Below are positions 4,933 through 11,705 of a DNA stretch of 12,446 bases, piece after piece. The DNA is from Roseburia sp. AM59-24XD (GTDB lineage: Bacteria; Bacillota; Clostridia; Lachnospirales; Lachnospiraceae). Position 1 is the stretch's first letter; every line of letters starts with the position of its first letter. Location: contig NZ_QUET01000048.1 in NCBI RefSeq assembly GCF_003478445.1, positions 1 to 12,446 of the forward strand, read 5' to 3'. The translations under genes were made by a program, and so were the position numbers. Below the pieces are notes generated by a model. That model ran no database searches. It was not told the origin of the DNA and was given only the letters and a program-made list of their open reading frames with translations.

Positions 4933-5142
4933 ATGGAATTACCGAATCGATGGGATTGTTTTATGGAAAGCGGACGTATAGAAGATTATCTGAATTACTG
5001 CAGAGCAAGACAGAATGATAACACAAGGGAACATAGTCCTGACGGGACGATGACAGAAAACAGGGTAGAGGCACGGTATGGCGGCGGAGCTGATAGAAGT
5101 GACCGGAATGGTGCTGACGGCATCTCCGGTAAAGGAATATGA
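4933..5142 (+). CDS. YqzL-like small protein
   Basis: A 69-residue ORF preceded by AGGAG at 4919-4923, nine bases from the ATG, a good ribosome binding site. The N-terminus reads W-x2-F-x2-SG-x-I-x2-YL-x-Y (residues about 7-22). This matches my recollection of the YqzL family, short Firmicutes proteins of unknown function encoded between era and recO. The position therefore supports the call as much as the sequence. The residues after about 40 are charged, Gly-rich and probably disordered. The last 65 bases overlap the start of recO in another frame, making the product longer than the usual roughly 45-50 residues. Confidence 0.65.
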   Translation: MELPNRWDCFMESGRIEDYLNYCRARQNDNTREHSPDGTMTENRVEARYGGGADRSDRNGADGISGKGI

Positions 5143-5842
5143 CAAACGAATAGAGCTGCTGACAAAAGAACGCGGGAGAATCTCTGCCTTTGTCACAGGA
5201 GCAAGAAGAGTCAACAGCGCAGTCTCTGCCTGTGCGATCCCTTTTACTTTTGGTACTTATCGACTGTACGAGGGCAGAAGCTCCTATAACGTGCAGTCTG
5301 CGCAGATTAAGAAGTTTTTTGCGGGAATAGCAGATGATTTTGACACTCTCTGCTATGCATCTTATTTTGCGGAGCTTGCAAGGTATTTTACAAGAGAAAA
5401 CGTTGAGGCACCGGATGAACTTCTGCTTCTGTATGTGGCATGCAGCGCAATGACCAGGGGAAAGATTTCACTGCCGCTTGTCCGGGTAATCTACGAGATG
5501 CGTATGATGCAGATCGAGGGTGAAGCACTTGAATTGTTTCAATGTCTTGGATGTAAAACATCACAGGGGAATCTTCGCGTTTATTTTTCGAGAGGTGGAT
5601 TTCTTTGTGACAGCTGCGCTGCGAAGTTTATGTCAGAGCAGAGGGAAAAGGGATACCGCCTTAGTCCGGACGCAGTTTATGCGCTGCAGTTTATAGTGAC
5701 GACACCGTTAGAGCGTTTATTTACATTTCGTGTTTCGGAACAGATAGAAAAAGAACTTTCAGAATTTATGACACACTATTATGAACATTATCTGCATCAT
5801 ACGTTTCAGTCTCTGGCTTTTCTGGAGTCTCTGCCGTATTAA
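5078..5842 (+). CDS. recO: DNA repair protein RecO
   Basis: A 254-residue recombination mediator of the RecFOR pathway; it helps load RecA on SSB-coated single strands and anneals complementary strands. The N-terminal OB-fold is recognisable from EVTGMVLTASPVKEYDKRI and LLTKERGRISAF...GARR. The C-terminal helical part carries a zinc motif of two CxxC pairs: C156/C159 and C177/C180. The ATG at 5078 is supported by AGAGG six bases upstream, and the OB-fold needs a start near here, so the overlap with the yqzL-like gene is real. The 3' end overlaps a convergent regulator gene by 77 bases. Confidence 0.95.
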   Translation: MAAELIEVTGMVLTASPVKEYDKRIELLTKERGRISAFVTGARRVNSAVSACAIPFTFGTYRLYEGRSSYNVQSAQIKKFFAGIADDFDTLCYASYFAELARYFTRENVEAPDELLLLYVACSAMTRGKISLPLVRVIYEMRMMQIEGEALELFQCLGCKTSQGNLRVYFSRGGFLCDSCAAKFMSEQREKGYRLSPDAVYALQFIVTTPLERLFTFRVSEQIEKELSEFMTHYYEHYLHHTFQSLAFLESLPY

Positions 5843-6170
5843 GATCAAGAAGCTTATCTATTGCGGGCTGCATGTCGGGATGGTTCCGGTATGCCTCGAT
5901 CAGCTTGTATTCCTGATTGGAAAGAGACGGAAGCTCTGTGCCGGAAGGCAGATACCCAAAAGCAGCCAGAACATTCTGGATATTATAAAAGCGGCACAGA
6001 TGCATCAGATTATCAGCACTGGGTTGTGTCTGTCCGTTCTCCCAGCCGTAAATTGTCTTTGTGGCAACATCAATATTCTTTTCACGCAGGTAAGCTGCGA
6101 CTTCATCGACAGATAAATGATTTATTTTACGATATTCTTTTAATTTTTCAGCAATTTTTGGATTTTTCAT
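5766..6170 (-). CDS. XRE-family helix-turn-helix regulator
   Basis: A 134-residue protein with an N-terminal Cro/C1-type HTH domain (residues about 5-65). The typical recognition-helix region TIYGWENGQTQPSADNLMHLC includes the W-E-N-G-x-x-x-P signature of XRE proteins. The C-terminal tail (about 85-134) is Glu/Pro/Thr-rich and not recognised. The start has GGAG (minus strand, 6177-6180) six bases upstream. It is transcribed from TTGACA-18-TAGTAT at 6242-6213 and faces away from the four-gene sulphur operon across a shared control region. It may autoregulate, control that operon, or both; the target is not established. Its 3' end runs 77 bases into the end of recO on the opposite strand. Confidence 0.85.
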   Translation of the reverse strand: MKNPKIAEKLKEYRKINHLSVDEVAAYLREKNIDVATKTIYGWENGQTQPSADNLMHLCRFYNIQNVLAAFGYLPSGTELPSLSNQEYKLIEAYRNHPDMQPAIDKLLDLNTAETPEKPETETYDADNVHNSVS

Positions 6171-6212: not shown

Positions 6213-6242
6213 ATACTATCAAACGAAAAATGACATTGTCAA
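6213..6242 (-). promoter_or_regulatory. Promoter of the XRE regulator gene
   Basis: On the minus strand a perfect TTGACA (complement of 6237-6242) is followed by 18 bases and TAGTAT (complement of 6213-6218). It is about 43 bases upstream of the regulator start codon. Confidence 0.75.
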
Positions 6243-6277
6243 GAAATCCTGCACTCAAAATGTGCGTAATACATAAA

Positions 6278-6296
6278 ATTCTCTTTAAAAGGGAAT
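6278..6296. promoter_or_regulatory. Dyad just upstream of the sulphur-operon promoter
   Basis: ATTCTCTTT-A-AAAGGGAAT is a 19-base near-perfect inverted repeat (eight of nine positions match). It ends nine bases before the -35 box at 6305. The placement fits an operator for one of the two adjacent HTH proteins. Binding is inference. Confidence 0.35.
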
Positions 6297-6304
6297 ACTA
6301 TGCG

Positions 6305-6333
6305 TTGAAATTCTATTTAAACGAGGATATAAT
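6305..6333 (+). promoter_or_regulatory. Strong sigma-A promoter of the four-gene sulphur operon
   Basis: TTGAAA (6305-6310), a 17-base spacer and a perfect TATAAT (6328-6333). Transcription should start near 6340, which rules out upstream ATGs of the first gene at 6230 and 6332 and supports its start at 6377. Confidence 0.85.
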
Positions 6334-6376
6334 GGAAAAAATGAAATATCCCTGTGAATGGAGAGGAGAGAAAGGC

Positions 6377-6592
6377 ATGGAAATAACGCATCGAGTGGTT
6401 GACTATATACAAAAGCATCATCTTTCGGCAGAGGAAATTGCCGGAAAGACGGGCGTTGCAGGAGAGATTCTTTCCGGAAAGGTGCAAAGAGGACTGAATG
6501 CGTCGGAGTTTTTGGCGATCTGCAGTTACCTGAAGGTGGATCCGTATGATTTTTATGACAGATCATCGGAAGAATGGAGAAAGGGATGCTGA
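6377..6592 (+). CDS. Small HTH (XRE/lambda-repressor-like) DNA-binding protein, 71 aa
   Basis: A 71-residue protein consisting of little more than one helix-turn-helix domain: VVDYIQKHHLSAEEIAGKTG...ILSGKVQRGLNASEFLAICSYLKVDPYDFY follows the XRE fold pattern. The ATG at 6377 follows GGAGAGGAG and lies downstream of the promoter at 6305-6333. The frame is open further upstream to 6230, but those ATGs precede the transcript start. It is the first gene of the operon, and its stop codon overlaps the start of the PAPS-reductase-family gene (ATGCTGA). It is probably the local regulator of the operon. It is unlike the divergent 134-residue regulator except in fold. Confidence 0.75.
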   Translation: MEITHRVVDYIQKHHLSAEEIAGKTGVAGEILSGKVQRGLNASEFLAICSYLKVDPYDFYDRSSEEWRKGC

Positions 6593-8361
6593 CATACCGG
6601 TGTTACGGAAGGCATGGACAGGGAAAACAGGAGAGGACAGATGGGCGGGAAGCAGCTGCATCGTATCTGCTGATTGAGGAGGCAGTCTGTCCGATATGCA
6701 AAAGCCGGGATCACGTTGAAGTGGAATCGCGGCTTTACTGGTGTACACACTGCCGGATACCGTTGTATGAAAAGAACTGTCCGCTGTGCCATGCGCCTGC
6801 GGAGGAGTTTGTACGTGACTGTCGTATAGTATTCCCTGAGGAAAAACGGCTTCTGGAGCTTTTGATGGAGGCAGAGCCCGGTACATATGACCACAGCAGT
6901 GTGTGGAACGGGGGAGGCATTTATTATGCGGATGGACTGAGGCTGCCGTTAGAGATCACGAAGCTGTCAGAGGAACAGATCCGTCGGGCAGCACAGAAGA
7001 TACCGGAGGCATTCCGAAATATTGACACGCGGGAGTTTGACCGGATGCGGGAACGGTTTGTGCGAGCTAATTGCAGGCGGTTTTGCGAGCTTGAAACAGA
7101 AGCCGTGGATTATATCCGAACCAGCGTGGAGCGGTATGGTATTTCTAAATGCTATGTTTCGTTCAGTGGCGGAAAAGATTCTACAGTTGTAGCAGAATTG
7201 GTGCGCCGTGCGCTGGGAATGGAATTGATGCACGGATTTGCGGATACTACCTTAGAACTTCCGCAGACACTGGAATACATCCGGCGTTACAGACGAAGTC
7301 ATCCGGATATCTATTTTATTGATGCAAAAAGCAGGGGCGAGCAGTTTGAAGCACTTTGTGAAATACTGGGGCCACCGAGCAGAGTCATGCGCTGGTGCTG
7401 TACGGTATTCAAAACAAGCGCATTAAACCGGCGGCTGGAAATGTGTTTCCCGGAAGGAGCGATCCTGTCCTTTCAGGGGATCCGGCGGGCAGAGTCTTAT
7501 GGGCGTCGGAAATATGACAGAACATCTCATAAAAACAAGATTGGCAGACAGATCACAGCATCGCCGATCATCGACTGGCAGGACTTTGATGTATGGCTGT
7601 ATATTGCCACAACAGGGATTGACTTTAATCAGGCGTATCGTCTGGGATATGCCAGAGTGGGATGCTGGTGCTGTCCCAATAACAGTACATGGTCAGAAAT
7701 ATTGGCACAGATTTATATGCCGCAGCAGCATCGCAGCTTTAAGCGGCTGCTTCTTGATTTTGCGGTCAAAACAAATAAAAAGGATCCGGAAGAGTATGTC
7801 CGCACCGGACAATGGAAAGCGAGACTGGGAGGATACGGTCTTGCGCATGCAAAACAGTCGGTCGTTTCGTATACGCCCTGTGTCAATGAAGCGGATGCGT
7901 ATCGTTATGAATTGACACGTCCGGTGACCGCTTCGTTTTTTGAACTGTGGAAGCCGTTTGGGTGGATCCACAGAGAACTCGGCAGCAGACATCTCGGTGA
8001 GGTTTATGTACTTGACCGGGATAAAATGCCGGTTCTTCGTCTGCAGGCAAGAGAGGGTGACATGGCGGTCAAGATTGTTGTTGAAGCCTTAGACAGAATG
8101 GGAACGAAAAGCAGGGACAAGGCGAGGAGATATGTGGAAGCACAGATCACCAAATATCAGATGTGCATCGGCTGTCATGCCTGTGAAGAAATTTGTCCGC
8201 ATGGTGCACTGCATTGTGATACAGAAGGTTACCGGATCAATGATGAAAAGTGTTTTCGATGCAGAAAATGTATTAATTATTTTAGTGGAGGCTGTTATAT
8301 CCGGAAAATCCTTTCAATTCCGCGGCAGCAGAGGAGCAAACATGAACAGGAAAACAGATAA
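6586..8361 (+). CDS. PAPS-reductase-family PP-loop ATP pyrophosphatase with zinc-ribbon N-terminus and C-terminal 4Fe-4S domain
   Basis: About 591 residues. The N-terminus has three CxxC pairs (C35/C38, C53/C56, C65/C68), probably zinc-binding. The central domain is the adenylating PP-loop fold shared by PAPS reductase, DndC and SspD: SGGKDS at 194-199, RWCC (269-272), the GIRRAES...R block, PIIDWQDFDVWLYI, and GCWCCP (C360, C362, C363). The C-terminus has a ferredoxin-like CxxCxxCxxxCP (C527, C530, C533, C537) and a second cysteine set C556, C559, C562 and C570. It probably activates a substrate with ATP for sulphur transfer; the substrate is unknown. Archaeal-type PAPS reductases with a similar domain order are an alternative. 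Start: ATG 6586 has GGAG six bases upstream; an in-frame ATG at 6574 has a poor binding site. Both ends overlap neighbouring genes. Confidence 0.85.
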   Translation: MLTYRCYGRHGQGKQERTDGREAAASYLLIEEAVCPICKSRDHVEVESRLYWCTHCRIPLYEKNCPLCHAPAEEFVRDCRIVFPEEKRLLELLMEAEPGTYDHSSVWNGGGIYYADGLRLPLEITKLSEEQIRRAAQKIPEAFRNIDTREFDRMRERFVRANCRRFCELETEAVDYIRTSVERYGISKCYVSFSGGKDSTVVAELVRRALGMELMHGFADTTLELPQTLEYIRRYRRSHPDIYFIDAKSRGEQFEALCEILGPPSRVMRWCCTVFKTSALNRRLEMCFPEGAILSFQGIRRAESYGRRKYDRTSHKNKIGRQITASPIIDWQDFDVWLYIATTGIDFNQAYRLGYARVGCWCCPNNSTWSEILAQIYMPQQHRSFKRLLLDFAVKTNKKDPEEYVRTGQWKARLGGYGLAHAKQSVVSYTPCVNEADAYRYELTRPVTASFFELWKPFGWIHRELGSRHLGEVYVLDRDKMPVLRLQAREGDMAVKIVVEALDRMGTKSRDKARRYVEAQITKYQMCIGCHACEEICPHGALHCDTEGYRINDEKCFRCRKCINYFSGGCYIRKILSIPRQQRSKHEQENR

Positions 8362-10318
8362 TATAAAGATGGAATGGCTTATAAAAGCAATGCACGAATT
8401 ACAGGGGCGACCGGAGCTGTTTGATAAAAACGGACGCATAGGGGCGGATATTCTCGGACATGCACCGGTTACTGTGCGCAATATCGGAACAAGGCTTACA
8501 GAACTGGGACTGGCACAGACGGGAAAGCAATCATTCCTGACACCGCTTGGAGAACTGGTTCTTCACTGTGATCCGTATCTGGAACGGTTCGAGTCTGCCT
8601 GGCTTCTTAACCGGACGGCACAGATGACAGGCGGAGCGGATGAGGCAATCGTACAGATTATTCAAGGTGCGTCTGGCCGGAAAATGCAGTGGAAATTGGA
8701 ACAGAACCTGTCTCTGCCGGAAGAACAGATGGCAGCCTGCTACAAAATGGCAGACCGGACATCGGTTGAACTTCTTCAGGATGGGATGATGCTGTTTTCG
8801 TGCCGGTATTATATTGAGAAAGGAATGCGCCGGATATATCGCTGCAGGGAATGTGCGCCGGAGGAATGTGAGACGGTTCTGGAACAGTCCTGTATGCGGA
8901 AACAGTCTGTCATCTGTCTGATTCGCGGAGAAATAACAGCATCGGATGAAATTCAGAATGTCATTGATCGGATAAGTACGTATCCGGCGATCATTGTCGG
9001 CAAGGTGGACGGACGGTGGAAGGCAGTGCGTGCCGGAAAGGGTGCGGTATCCTGCGAAAGTATAAGCCGTCTTCTGCAAATAATGTGGGAGCAAAGCAAA
9101 CAATATTATCCGGAAACACCGTTACTTCGAATGGAAACGTTGATGGCAGATGCTTTGACACTGACACAGCGCCGGGTGAGAATGAGAGTTATTGATGCAA
9201 TTTTCGGGCGGACGACAGGATATAAGAGGAGAACCTCTTATATGGAGGAAGAGCGTCTTTGCCGCTGTGTGGCAGAGATGACCGGGGCGAACGGAGACAA
9301 ACAGGCAGAGCCTGTCATGAATCGGATCCTGCTGCAGTTTCACCGGTTTATAGACGATGCACGGAAGAGTCCGCAAAATCTGCAGACATTGTACAATACA
9401 CTGCAAGCACCTCCGTATGGTCTGCCGGGAGGTATTATTCCTGTTCTTCTTGCAGTGGCGCTGATGGAACAGAAGCTGGATGGCGTGCTCCGCGTCGCAG
9501 CGGTAGAGCAGGTGATCTGTGGAAAGACGCTGGATAATGCAGATAAGGAACCGGCAAATTATGAGTTATATATAGAAAATGTATTTCTGCATCCACAGGA
9601 ATATCAGGAGGAACTTGCCGGTCTTTTTGACATTGACCGGGAAGAACTGGACAAAACCGGCAGGTTTGAGAGGACGAAGTTAGTGGCAGACCGGATCGCG
9701 GACTGGTATCAAAAGCTTCCGCTGTATACCTGGTCGATGGGGAGCACCGGAGCATGCGGGAAGCAGACGGAAGCATTTGTCAGAGCATGCCGCCGGAAGA
9801 GAGATCGTTTCTTTTCCTTCCTTTATCGGGACATCCCGGACTGTCTGCTGGCACAGAATGCAAAGGAATGCATTCAGGCACTGCAGGCGCAGAAGAGTCT
9901 TTTGGAAGCCTGCTATCCGAAACTGCAGAAAGAACTTTGTGAAATCACCGGGAAGATATGTGGAGAGGCATCGGTAGAAGAAACCGAGAGGCTTGCAAAA
10001 CAGCTTATGGGGGTTACAATGGAGTATTTTCAGCCGGACAGTGCTGAAATTTATGCCGGAAAGCTCCAAAACTATATGAATGAGAAACTTGGCGGAAAGT
10101 ATTCGGGGACTCCGACTCTGGAAATTGTTATTTGCGAAAAAGCTGCGAAGGATATCAGCTGCAGAATATATCATGAATCGCACGGGCAGACGGCACAGCT
10201 TCTGAAGCGGCAGATACATTATCTGATCGGGGAGACCAGAAATGCACTGGAACAGGAAGAGAAAGCAGCGGTTTTGATCCGGGTGCTGCAGGAGGTGATA
10301 GAGAATGATCTATCTTGA
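8342..10318 (+). CDS. Large protein with DUF4007-like N-terminus, unknown function
   Basis: A 658-residue protein, not confidently assigned. Residues about 10-95 follow the pattern I recall for DUF4007: a helix-turn-helix-like VTVRNIGTRLTELGL (43-57), LTPLGELV (66-73), DPYLE (77-81) and WLL (87-89). I recall DUF4007 proteins encoded beside PAPS-reductase-family and cysteine desulfurase genes in DNA-sulphur and related defence loci. The rest looks soluble and helical. It includes PPYG (357-360) followed by a hydrophobic helix, and a QKLPLYTWSMGSTG segment, faintly like the helical regions of large conflict-system ATPases, but no Walker A motif is present. No membrane segment or signal peptide. 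ATG 8342 has GAGGAG five bases upstream. It overlaps both neighbours, implying coupled translation. Confidence 0.6.
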   Translation: MNRKTDNIKMEWLIKAMHELQGRPELFDKNGRIGADILGHAPVTVRNIGTRLTELGLAQTGKQSFLTPLGELVLHCDPYLERFESAWLLNRTAQMTGGADEAIVQIIQGASGRKMQWKLEQNLSLPEEQMAACYKMADRTSVELLQDGMMLFSCRYYIEKGMRRIYRCRECAPEECETVLEQSCMRKQSVICLIRGEITASDEIQNVIDRISTYPAIIVGKVDGRWKAVRAGKGAVSCESISRLLQIMWEQSKQYYPETPLLRMETLMADALTLTQRRVRMRVIDAIFGRTTGYKRRTSYMEEERLCRCVAEMTGANGDKQAEPVMNRILLQFHRFIDDARKSPQNLQTLYNTLQAPPYGLPGGIIPVLLAVALMEQKLDGVLRVAAVEQVICGKTLDNADKEPANYELYIENVFLHPQEYQEELAGLFDIDREELDKTGRFERTKLVADRIADWYQKLPLYTWSMGSTGACGKQTEAFVRACRRKRDRFFSFLYRDIPDCLLAQNAKECIQALQAQKSLLEACYPKLQKELCEITGKICGEASVEETERLAKQLMGVTMEYFQPDSAEIYAGKLQNYMNEKLGGKYSGTPTLEIVICEKAAKDISCRIYHESHGQTAQLLKRQIHYLIGETRNALEQEEKAAVLIRVLQEVIENDLS

Positions 10319-11408
10319 TTATGCAGCAACCTCATATATAAAAGAAGAGTGTGTTTATCAGGAAATGGATCGCCTGTTTCGGACAATGTCCGTCAATGCA
10401 GGACGAGGAACATATCCGGCAAGCCGGCAGGCACAGAAGCTGATTGATGAGACGAGGGCGCAAATAGCATCGCAGACCGGCTGGTATGATCCTTCAGATG
10501 TCTATTTTACCGCGTCGGCAACTCAGGCGTGTAATATAGTGCTGCAAGGGCTATCCTGGGAGCAGGGGGATATTGTGTATTTATCGCCGTATGAGCACAA
10601 TGCAATCGCCCGTGTGATGGAAACTTTGCGTCTGCGGTATAAGCTTCAGATCAGGCTGCTTCCGGTAGATGGGGATGGTTACATTGATCTGGAGCAGACG
10701 AGACAGCTTTTCCGGACGTATGCACCCAAAGCTGTATGTGCGGTGATGGTCAGCAATGTGACCGGATATATCCTGCCGGTGAAACAGATAACACAATATG
10801 CACATGCCGCGGGTGCCGTTGTTATTTCAGATATGGCACAGGCACTTGGTATCGTTCCGGTTGAGCTGACAAAGGATGCACCGGATTTTATAATTTTTGC
10901 AGGGCATAAGGGGATTGGCGGACCGTTTGGTACGGGAGGATTTATTGTATGCGGCGGCAAAATGCCGGAGCCGGTTCTGTATGGAGGCAACGGCGTGGAT
11001 TCCCGGAATCTGCAGATGCCATTGACCGGAAGCGCACGTTATGAAGCCGGAAGCAGTAACGCACCGGCGATCGGAGCACTGAAAAAAGCACTGGAGGTTC
11101 TGCCTGATCCACGGGAAACATTGCAGAGAGAGCAGCATCAGATCGCATTGCTGCAGAAGGAGCTTCACGGACAGAGAGGAATCTGTTTTTATCCGGCGCA
11201 CCGTATTCAGGAGCAGTTTACGGGGATCCTGTCATTTCGTCTCAGAAGATACACACCGGAGGAAACGGCAGACATCCTAAGTGCGGAATACGATATAGCG
11301 TGCGCAGCGGATATCATTGTGCACCATATGTACATGACATTTACGGAACCGGAGATACAGGAACGGTTCGGGTCAGCGTGGGAAGATATACAACGGAGGA
11401 AGAACTGA
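10305..11408 (+). CDS. Cysteine desulfurase (class V aminotransferase), frameshifted before the catalytic cysteine
   Basis: The open frame gives 367 residues of a PLP-dependent cysteine desulfurase, which would take sulphur from L-cysteine and pass it on as persulfide. Family marks: MIYLDYAATS at the start, NAGRGTYPASRQA, D176-x-AQ179 for the cofactor ring, and the Schiff-base lysine K202 in FAGHKGIGGPFGTGG. It looks closest to the EF2568-type family of desulfurases. Frame is lost after A332 (11298-11300). The following 35 residues are not family-like, and the true end (VR.GYHCAP...) lies in the -1 frame to 11443. As read, the product lacks the catalytic cysteine and should be inactive. Translation starts at ATG 10305 behind an excellent AGGAGGTGA, overlapping the previous gene by 14 bases. 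Sequencing error, real mutation and recoding remain open. Confidence 0.85.
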   Translation: MIYLDYAATSYIKEECVYQEMDRLFRTMSVNAGRGTYPASRQAQKLIDETRAQIASQTGWYDPSDVYFTASATQACNIVLQGLSWEQGDIVYLSPYEHNAIARVMETLRLRYKLQIRLLPVDGDGYIDLEQTRQLFRTYAPKAVCAVMVSNVTGYILPVKQITQYAHAAGAVVISDMAQALGIVPVELTKDAPDFIIFAGHKGIGGPFGTGGFIVCGGKMPEPVLYGGNGVDSRNLQMPLTGSARYEAGSSNAPAIGALKKALEVLPDPRETLQREQHQIALLQKELHGQRGICFYPAHRIQEQFTGILSFRLRRYTPEETADILSAEYDIACAADIIVHHMYMTFTEPEIQERFGSAWEDIQRRKN

Positions 11409-11443
11409 TACGGCTGGCAGAGGTACTGCACAAGCTGTGCTAG
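11300..11443 (+). other. Displaced C-terminus of the cysteine desulfurase (-1 frame), including catalytic Cys
   Basis: Reading from g11300 in the -1 frame gives V-R-S-G-Y-H-C-A-P, then YVHDIYGTGDTGTVRVSVGR, then YTTEEELIRLAEVLHKLC and a TAG stop at 11441-11443. This is exactly the conserved end of group II cysteine desulfurases; the catalytic cysteine codon is TGT 11318-11320. It joins the upstream frame seamlessly (…YDIA|VRSGYHCAP…) if one G is restored at GCG|TG (11300/11301). The whole gene is therefore 10305-11443, about 379 residues if intact. No ribosome binding site supports independent translation of this fragment. Confidence 0.88.
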
Positions 11444-11520: not shown

Positions 11521-11705
11521 AAAAGAAATCACCTGGGGTGTGCGACACTCCTGACATTTTGAACCTACACTTTTGAACAGGGATTCCTATATCTATGTAT
11601 GGATGTCATGCCCTATTACCTGGGACGGCAGAAGTACATGTGCGGTTACCCACCTAGCACATGCTAGGACTCAAAATTCAGGAACCGGCATTTTGGGCTT
11701 CTTTG
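11521..11705 (+). ncRNA. ssrS: 6S RNA
   Basis: A noncoding stretch of about 185 bases with its own promoter and terminator folds as a long irregular rod, as expected of 6S RNA, which binds housekeeping RNA polymerase as a promoter mimic. The terminal stem pairs AAAGAA (11522-11527) with TTCTTT near 11699-11704. Further in, CCTGACATTTTGA pairs with TCAAAATTCAGG with one bulge, leaving a large central region. I recognise the CATTTTGAACCTACA...TTTTGAACAGGG block as Firmicutes 6S-like. A local hairpin GGGGTGT-GCG-ACACTCC near the 5' end could compete with the outer stem. Exact ends are estimates. Confidence 0.8.

Follow-up and report, generated by a model that had tools for sequence, protein, structure and literature searches.

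The locus described here is closest to the SspABCD(-SspE) defence systems of phosphorothioate DNA modification, with the dnd clusters and type 4 BREX as further relatives. In PMC7188994, SspA is taken to be the enzyme that mobilises sulfur from cysteine for SspD, a role is given to its catalytic cysteine, and loss of sspA in Vibrio abolishes modification despite a chromosomal iscS. PMC10853773 describes SspC as an AAA+ ATPase of the Cdc6/Orc type and assigns SspB a triple-wHTH architecture. In dnd clusters, dndA is missing from 19 of 31, with IscS serving in its place (PMC3519819), and in type 4 BREX, where a desulfurase is sporadic, substitution by housekeeping enzymes has been proposed (PMC12839542). 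The published cases thus disagree on whether such a module needs its own desulfurase: that of dnd is replaceable, and that of Vibrio Ssp is not. If the frame break reported below is real, the locus is a natural test of this need.

Results

On the window, as we call the whole 12,446-nucleotide stretch analysed, lie recO and genes for an LRR_5 protein, an SspD/BrxP-like protein and a cysteine desulfurase, two small ORFs that resemble regulators, an ORF of 658 aa, one gene for 6S RNA and a pair for tRNA-Ser, together with two genes, conserved in relatives, that we take to be PreP and era. The cassette is flanked on the left by recO (5078..5842, forward strand; RecO_N/RecO_C) and on the right by the 6S RNA gene (11527..11703, forward strand; RF00013, 66.8 bits). 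Divergent to the operon lies an HTH regulator gene, HTHm (5766..6170, reverse strand; HTH_3, 1.5e-7), and overlapping the SspD start is a small ORF, HTHp (6230..6592, forward strand), that is possibly a regulator and had no match in a Pfam search. Both have orthologs in equivalent places in L149, a stretch of the genome G313 (63% and 50% identity, respectively), and HTHm is 53% identical to a gene adjoining SspD in another stretch, L123.

The SspD/BrxP-like protein (6574..8361, forward strand; 595 aa) has a PAPS-reductase fold (PAPS_reduct, 1.4e-31) and a ferredoxin domain, and is 63% identical to its counterpart in L149 and 48% to that in L103. Its best profile score is to BrxP (5.3e-79 vs 2.7e-12 for SspD), a likeness to type 4 BREX (BrxP/DUF4007/BrxC); unlike that system, the window has no PglZ-like, BrxL-like or BrxC-size ORF between recO and 6S RNA. 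The 658-aa ORF (8342..10318, forward strand) and the SspA-like desulfurase, whose start at 10305 gives a 14-base overlap with the preceding ORF, complete the set. Judged from its sequence, the operon is Ssp-like, and so putatively one of phosphorothioate DNA modification, made up of SspD, a one-piece SspB-SspC and SspA; the sulphur operon claimed in the first-pass annotation is borne out to this extent. It has an SspD-type protein, an SspB-like N-terminus, the SspC C-terminal region and an SspA-type protein in the D-B-C-A order of SspABCD(-SspE), but differs from that system in having one short ORF for SspB and SspC, no AAA+ ATPase, no SspE match and a broken SspA.

The extent of the reduction can be seen against the reference operon in L103, a stretch of G007, which is a genome of the genus found via era loci. 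In order, this operon encodes SspD (616 aa), SspB (305 aa), SspC (1261 aa), SspA (389 aa) and finally a GmrSD/SspE-like protein. The 658-aa ORF joins an SspB-like N-terminus (about residues 7-91), aligning to the first third of SspB, to the C-terminal region of SspC (about residues 234-653), to which its SspC alignment is confined. On a profile of 18 SspC sequences (1189 positions) it matches 721-1035 and 1083-1189, and its 712-aa G313 counterpart matches 715-1189 and, weakly, 567-654. A Walker A motif is found at residues 59-65 in 18 of 18 profile sequences and also in two partial SspC proteins kept outside the profile, one running off its contig (L168) and one stopping a few bases before a contig edge (L181), for 20 of 20; it is absent from the 658-aa ORF and from its G313 counterpart. 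Searching by tblastn with SspC residues 1-640 gave no match in the window or L149. Two SspE-like proteins (tblastn, E 0.01) likewise matched nothing in these two stretches, which were the scope of that search, an effector encoded farther away in the genome being conceivable. With complete SspB, about the first third aligned, and DUF4007 reached 20 bits vs a cut-off of 27. Since the ATPase half, most of SspB and SspE were not found, what had been annotated as an otherwise intact operon is instead an ATPase-less Ssp-like module without SspE.

Alignment of the 658-aa ORF to its three listed homologs needs no internal gaps. Its predicted structure (mean pLDDT 37.1) was set aside, and the G313 counterpart had no sequence relative in the PDB at E 0.1. 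Scanning genome contigs with the 658-aa ORF found no relative, and with Era found relatives at up to 87%. Phage or plasmid origin was rejected: P0122 and P0002 had no match in scans of viral contigs, nor did P0122 in a tblastn search of plasmids. In the partial texts that our literature search returned, no published ATPase-less one-piece SspB-SspC was found, a search of this kind being no proof of absence.

The class-V desulfurase gene is out of frame in the window, and its catalytic cysteine is cut off. The upstream frame (10305..11408, forward strand; 367 aa) keeps family homology to codon 332 (10305-11300) and then adds 35 off-frame residues to a stop at 11408; full-length desulfurase profiles cover it only to about residues 328-336, in line with the earlier placing of the last homologous residue at A332. 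The class-V aminotransferase fold is present, with GHK conserved at residues 200-202, the lysine of which we take to be the PLP-binding residue. The C-terminus with the catalytic cysteine lies in an overlapping forward-strand frame (11300..11443), in phase with 11276/11300, that reads VRSGYHCAPYVHDIYGTG... to a stop at 11441-11443. Because the upstream frame covers positions 1-336 of the Aminotran_5 profile (8.2e-54) and the downstream frame positions 334-371 (3.3e-5), the second resumes where the first stops. The near-identical allele P0002 reads DIAVRSGYHCAP across the crossing in a single frame, with 0 residues extra or missing in the alignment, which means that the window's two frames abut. 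Both the one-base break and the out-of-frame C-terminus claimed in the first-pass annotation are thus confirmed.

SufS-type enzymes also have a catalytic cysteine. Aligned via P0003 to solved desulfurases of this type, the window's cysteine is the seventh residue past codon 332; the break is therefore near it, as annotated, but just before rather than "exactly before" it. In the window this residue is coded only by the overlapping frame, and in relatives it stands in frame. There is no repeat tract or long homopolymer at the break and no XXXYYYZ-type heptamer at the crossing, the closest being at 11113, and the RNA fold downstream of the crossing is unremarkable (z -1.05). Comparison with orthologs revealed no break in the other window ORFs.

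P0122 was searched against 397 of the family's genomes, themselves part of a larger group, and matched in 19, near full length in G313 only. G313 is a Lachnospiraceae MAG with a desulfurase identical to P0005; the other genomes given G numbers presumably belong to the Lachnospiraceae too. Its stretch L149 shares the window's order of PreP, era, LRR protein, recO, both regulator ORFs, SspD (557 aa), one-piece ORF (712 aa), SspA (379 aa, whole), 6S RNA and both tRNA-Ser genes. Identity between window and G313 falls from 95% for era and 78% for recO to 63% for SspD, 51% over 332 residues for SspA and 26% for the one-piece ORF, which evolves fastest (dN 0.77 vs 0.16 for recO). As synonymous sites are too diverged (dS above 1.8 or saturated in 9 of 9 genes compared), we dropped the dN/dS ratio and used dN and open frames. 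The frames are open, in SspA up to the break, and at saturated dS this means that, until recently, selection kept SspA as well as the one-piece ORF. The equal layout at the same site in this sister species, the whole desulfurase and the saturated divergence together make the slim operon an old, selected variant. That the one-piece fusion is a private collapse of this contig is ruled out by the syntenic 712-aa ORF. The 658-aa ORF is missing about 45 residues, after residue 548, that the G313 counterpart has.

Two relatives are without the cassette beside recO. G424, closer to the window than is G313 (recO 82%, PreP 85%), has an empty site in which recO runs directly into 6S RNA and the tRNAs. 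Its recO is five codons short exactly at the missing cassette (L163, 863-869), which fits a cassette deletion, and suggests that G424 lost the cassette and not that the window's lineage gained it. In the stretch read from the second relative, G425, neither the cassette nor 6S/tRNA-Ser genes lie beside recO.

We also compared alleles of the desulfurase. Of 7994 candidates scored, 4417 matched, and among the best 120 of these, P0002, P0003 and P0004 had at least 76% identity to the window desulfurase; a second search with an N-terminal query (47 matches listed) added P0125, P0126 and P0128. P0002 has 2 differences from the window in 331 residues and is continuous through the break site. It is 363 aa long and its last residues are GRYL; the window instead runs 17 residues beyond GRY, so that the end of P0002 is either a further break or a contig end. 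P0003 (379 aa, 76% identity) is whole, as is the syntenic 51% ortholog of L149. P0004 loses frame near codon 206, P0125 near 76, P0126 near 75 and P0128 near 59. Ahead of their breaks the last three have 0 differences from the window, and the four have 0-2 each. This makes five distinct breaks, including the window's, on nearly the same background, plus the uncertain end of P0002. The sequences come from two data sources, lgn for P0125 and P0126 and ena for P0002, P0004 and P0128, and that of P0128 occurs on two contigs. At least three of the other four breaks (P0004, P0126, P0128) seem, by our reading, to have an extra change beside them. The first-pass annotation had proposed comparing the locus in other isolates; the window's one-base break was found in none of the relatives compared, and there is no shared loss that would favour recoding.

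Homologs of the 658-aa neighbour have 888 + 31 + 4 = 923 listed members, 35 of them at 88-95% identity, vs 29 + 26 + 15 + 1 + 1 = 72 for near-identical desulfurase copies (P0003, with 1 member, left out), counts that are soft and of uncertain meaning, as some 98-99% identical proteins have separate database entries, and that through length limits have little power for broken copies of the 658-aa ORF.

As a control we took 23 stretches of other genomes. A complete SspA-like gene was found in 18, and in 18 of 18 it is in a single frame; 2 stretches were cut by a contig end, and 3 had no SspA-like gene in reach. Operons of this kind thus do not as a rule have a broken SspA, and 17 of the 18 genes adjoin SspB, SspC or SspD matches, the exception being in L104. 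Two stretches, L103 and L104, were reached via the desulfurase itself, which biases them toward whole copies, and the remaining 21 of 23 via SspD or P0122 matches.

Discussion

We favour, at about even confidence, the explanation that the window carries a genuine loss-of-function allele of recent origin, one among several that the species has, with SspD and the ATPase-less SspB-SspC still open. Recent recurrent loss is favoured by the two data sources, the presence of P0128 on two contigs and the member counts of 923 vs 72. Against it, differing indels on backgrounds 0-2 residues apart are a pattern that indel errors would also give. A sequencing or assembly error, the gene being whole in the organism and the other broken alleles being errors as well, has an appreciable but smaller probability. 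That the near-identical allele P0002 reads through, and that at least three breaks seem to be accompanied by an additional change, would suit such an error. The gene's four other distinct breaks in two sources, the remaining window ORFs without a visible break, and the far fewer listed members for the desulfurase than for its neighbour all argue against it.

Other explanations fare worse. The operon as a whole might be dying, with the SspB-SspC collapse and the ATPase loss already fatal and sspA the next casualty. The missing SspC ATPase half, most of SspB and SspE would agree with this, as would the clean absence of the cassette in the close relative G424, but the three-gene layout of G313 is fully open at saturated synonymous distance and the 658-aa ORF is gap-free internally against its homologs, making decay of the whole operon improbable. 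A phase-variable switch, in which reversible slippage would turn the desulfurase on and off, was an option in the first-pass annotation and would explain why nearly identical backgrounds carry both unbroken and broken alleles. It is very unlikely given a site without repeat or long homopolymer and other alleles broken at other places. Programmed -1 frameshifting, which would use the overlap of the frames at the crossing to yield the full protein, is the least credible of all. Recoding, already doubted in that annotation, is rejected on the missing heptamer, the ordinary fold and the single continuous frame of the relatives. A near-identical allele that reads through and breaks that lie elsewhere speak against recoding as a conserved feature and against a phase switch that is fixed.

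If the loss is real, it may be tolerated, since housekeeping desulfurases can supply sulfur, with dnd as the precedent and Vibrio SspA as the contrary case. SspD would take its sulfur from a housekeeping desulfurase, so that sspA would become dispensable and decay first. Alternatively, the module may be in the course of being switched off, its activity being costly. Dispensability of sspA is plausible here from the dnd precedent, the BREX proposal and additional desulfurase-like genes, three further ones in G313 and a match in 27 of 28 genomes in the genus of G002. Simple substitution is opposed by the Vibrio sspA that chromosomal iscS did not replace (PMC7188994). Like dnd clusters without dndA, the window would hold a phosphorothioation operon without its own working desulfurase, but in those clusters the gene is absent. 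The window still has it, sister lineages conserve it, and the break appears to be fresh.

More tentatively, the recO-6S RNA site of one Lachnospiraceae lineage may hold a stable, ATPase-less and desulfurase-independent Ssp variant, from which the desulfurase is now repeatedly being lost in one species with housekeeping enzymes taking over. Such a variant, if real, would work, if at all, without the AAA+ motor proposed to travel along DNA.

In the genus of G002, the one-piece form occurs in 0 of 28 genomes, and the 3 of 28 that match P0122 do so via ordinary SspB or SspC. In one SspC (L181, 1-75; G029:C145), the frame stops after about 610 residues, a few bases from the contig edge, and is either broken or an edge artefact. 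L104 (5977-7650; G012:C64) has a whole SspA-like desulfurase downstream of a 165-aa ORF that has no Pfam or PADLOC match, and no SspB, SspC or SspD match is present in the stretch read. In L123 (5376-9402; G012:C48), an SspD-SspB operon start and a similar divergent HTH gene directly adjoin 6S RNA, on the opposite side of the 6S gene relative to the window; such operons may have landed at the 6S region more than once.
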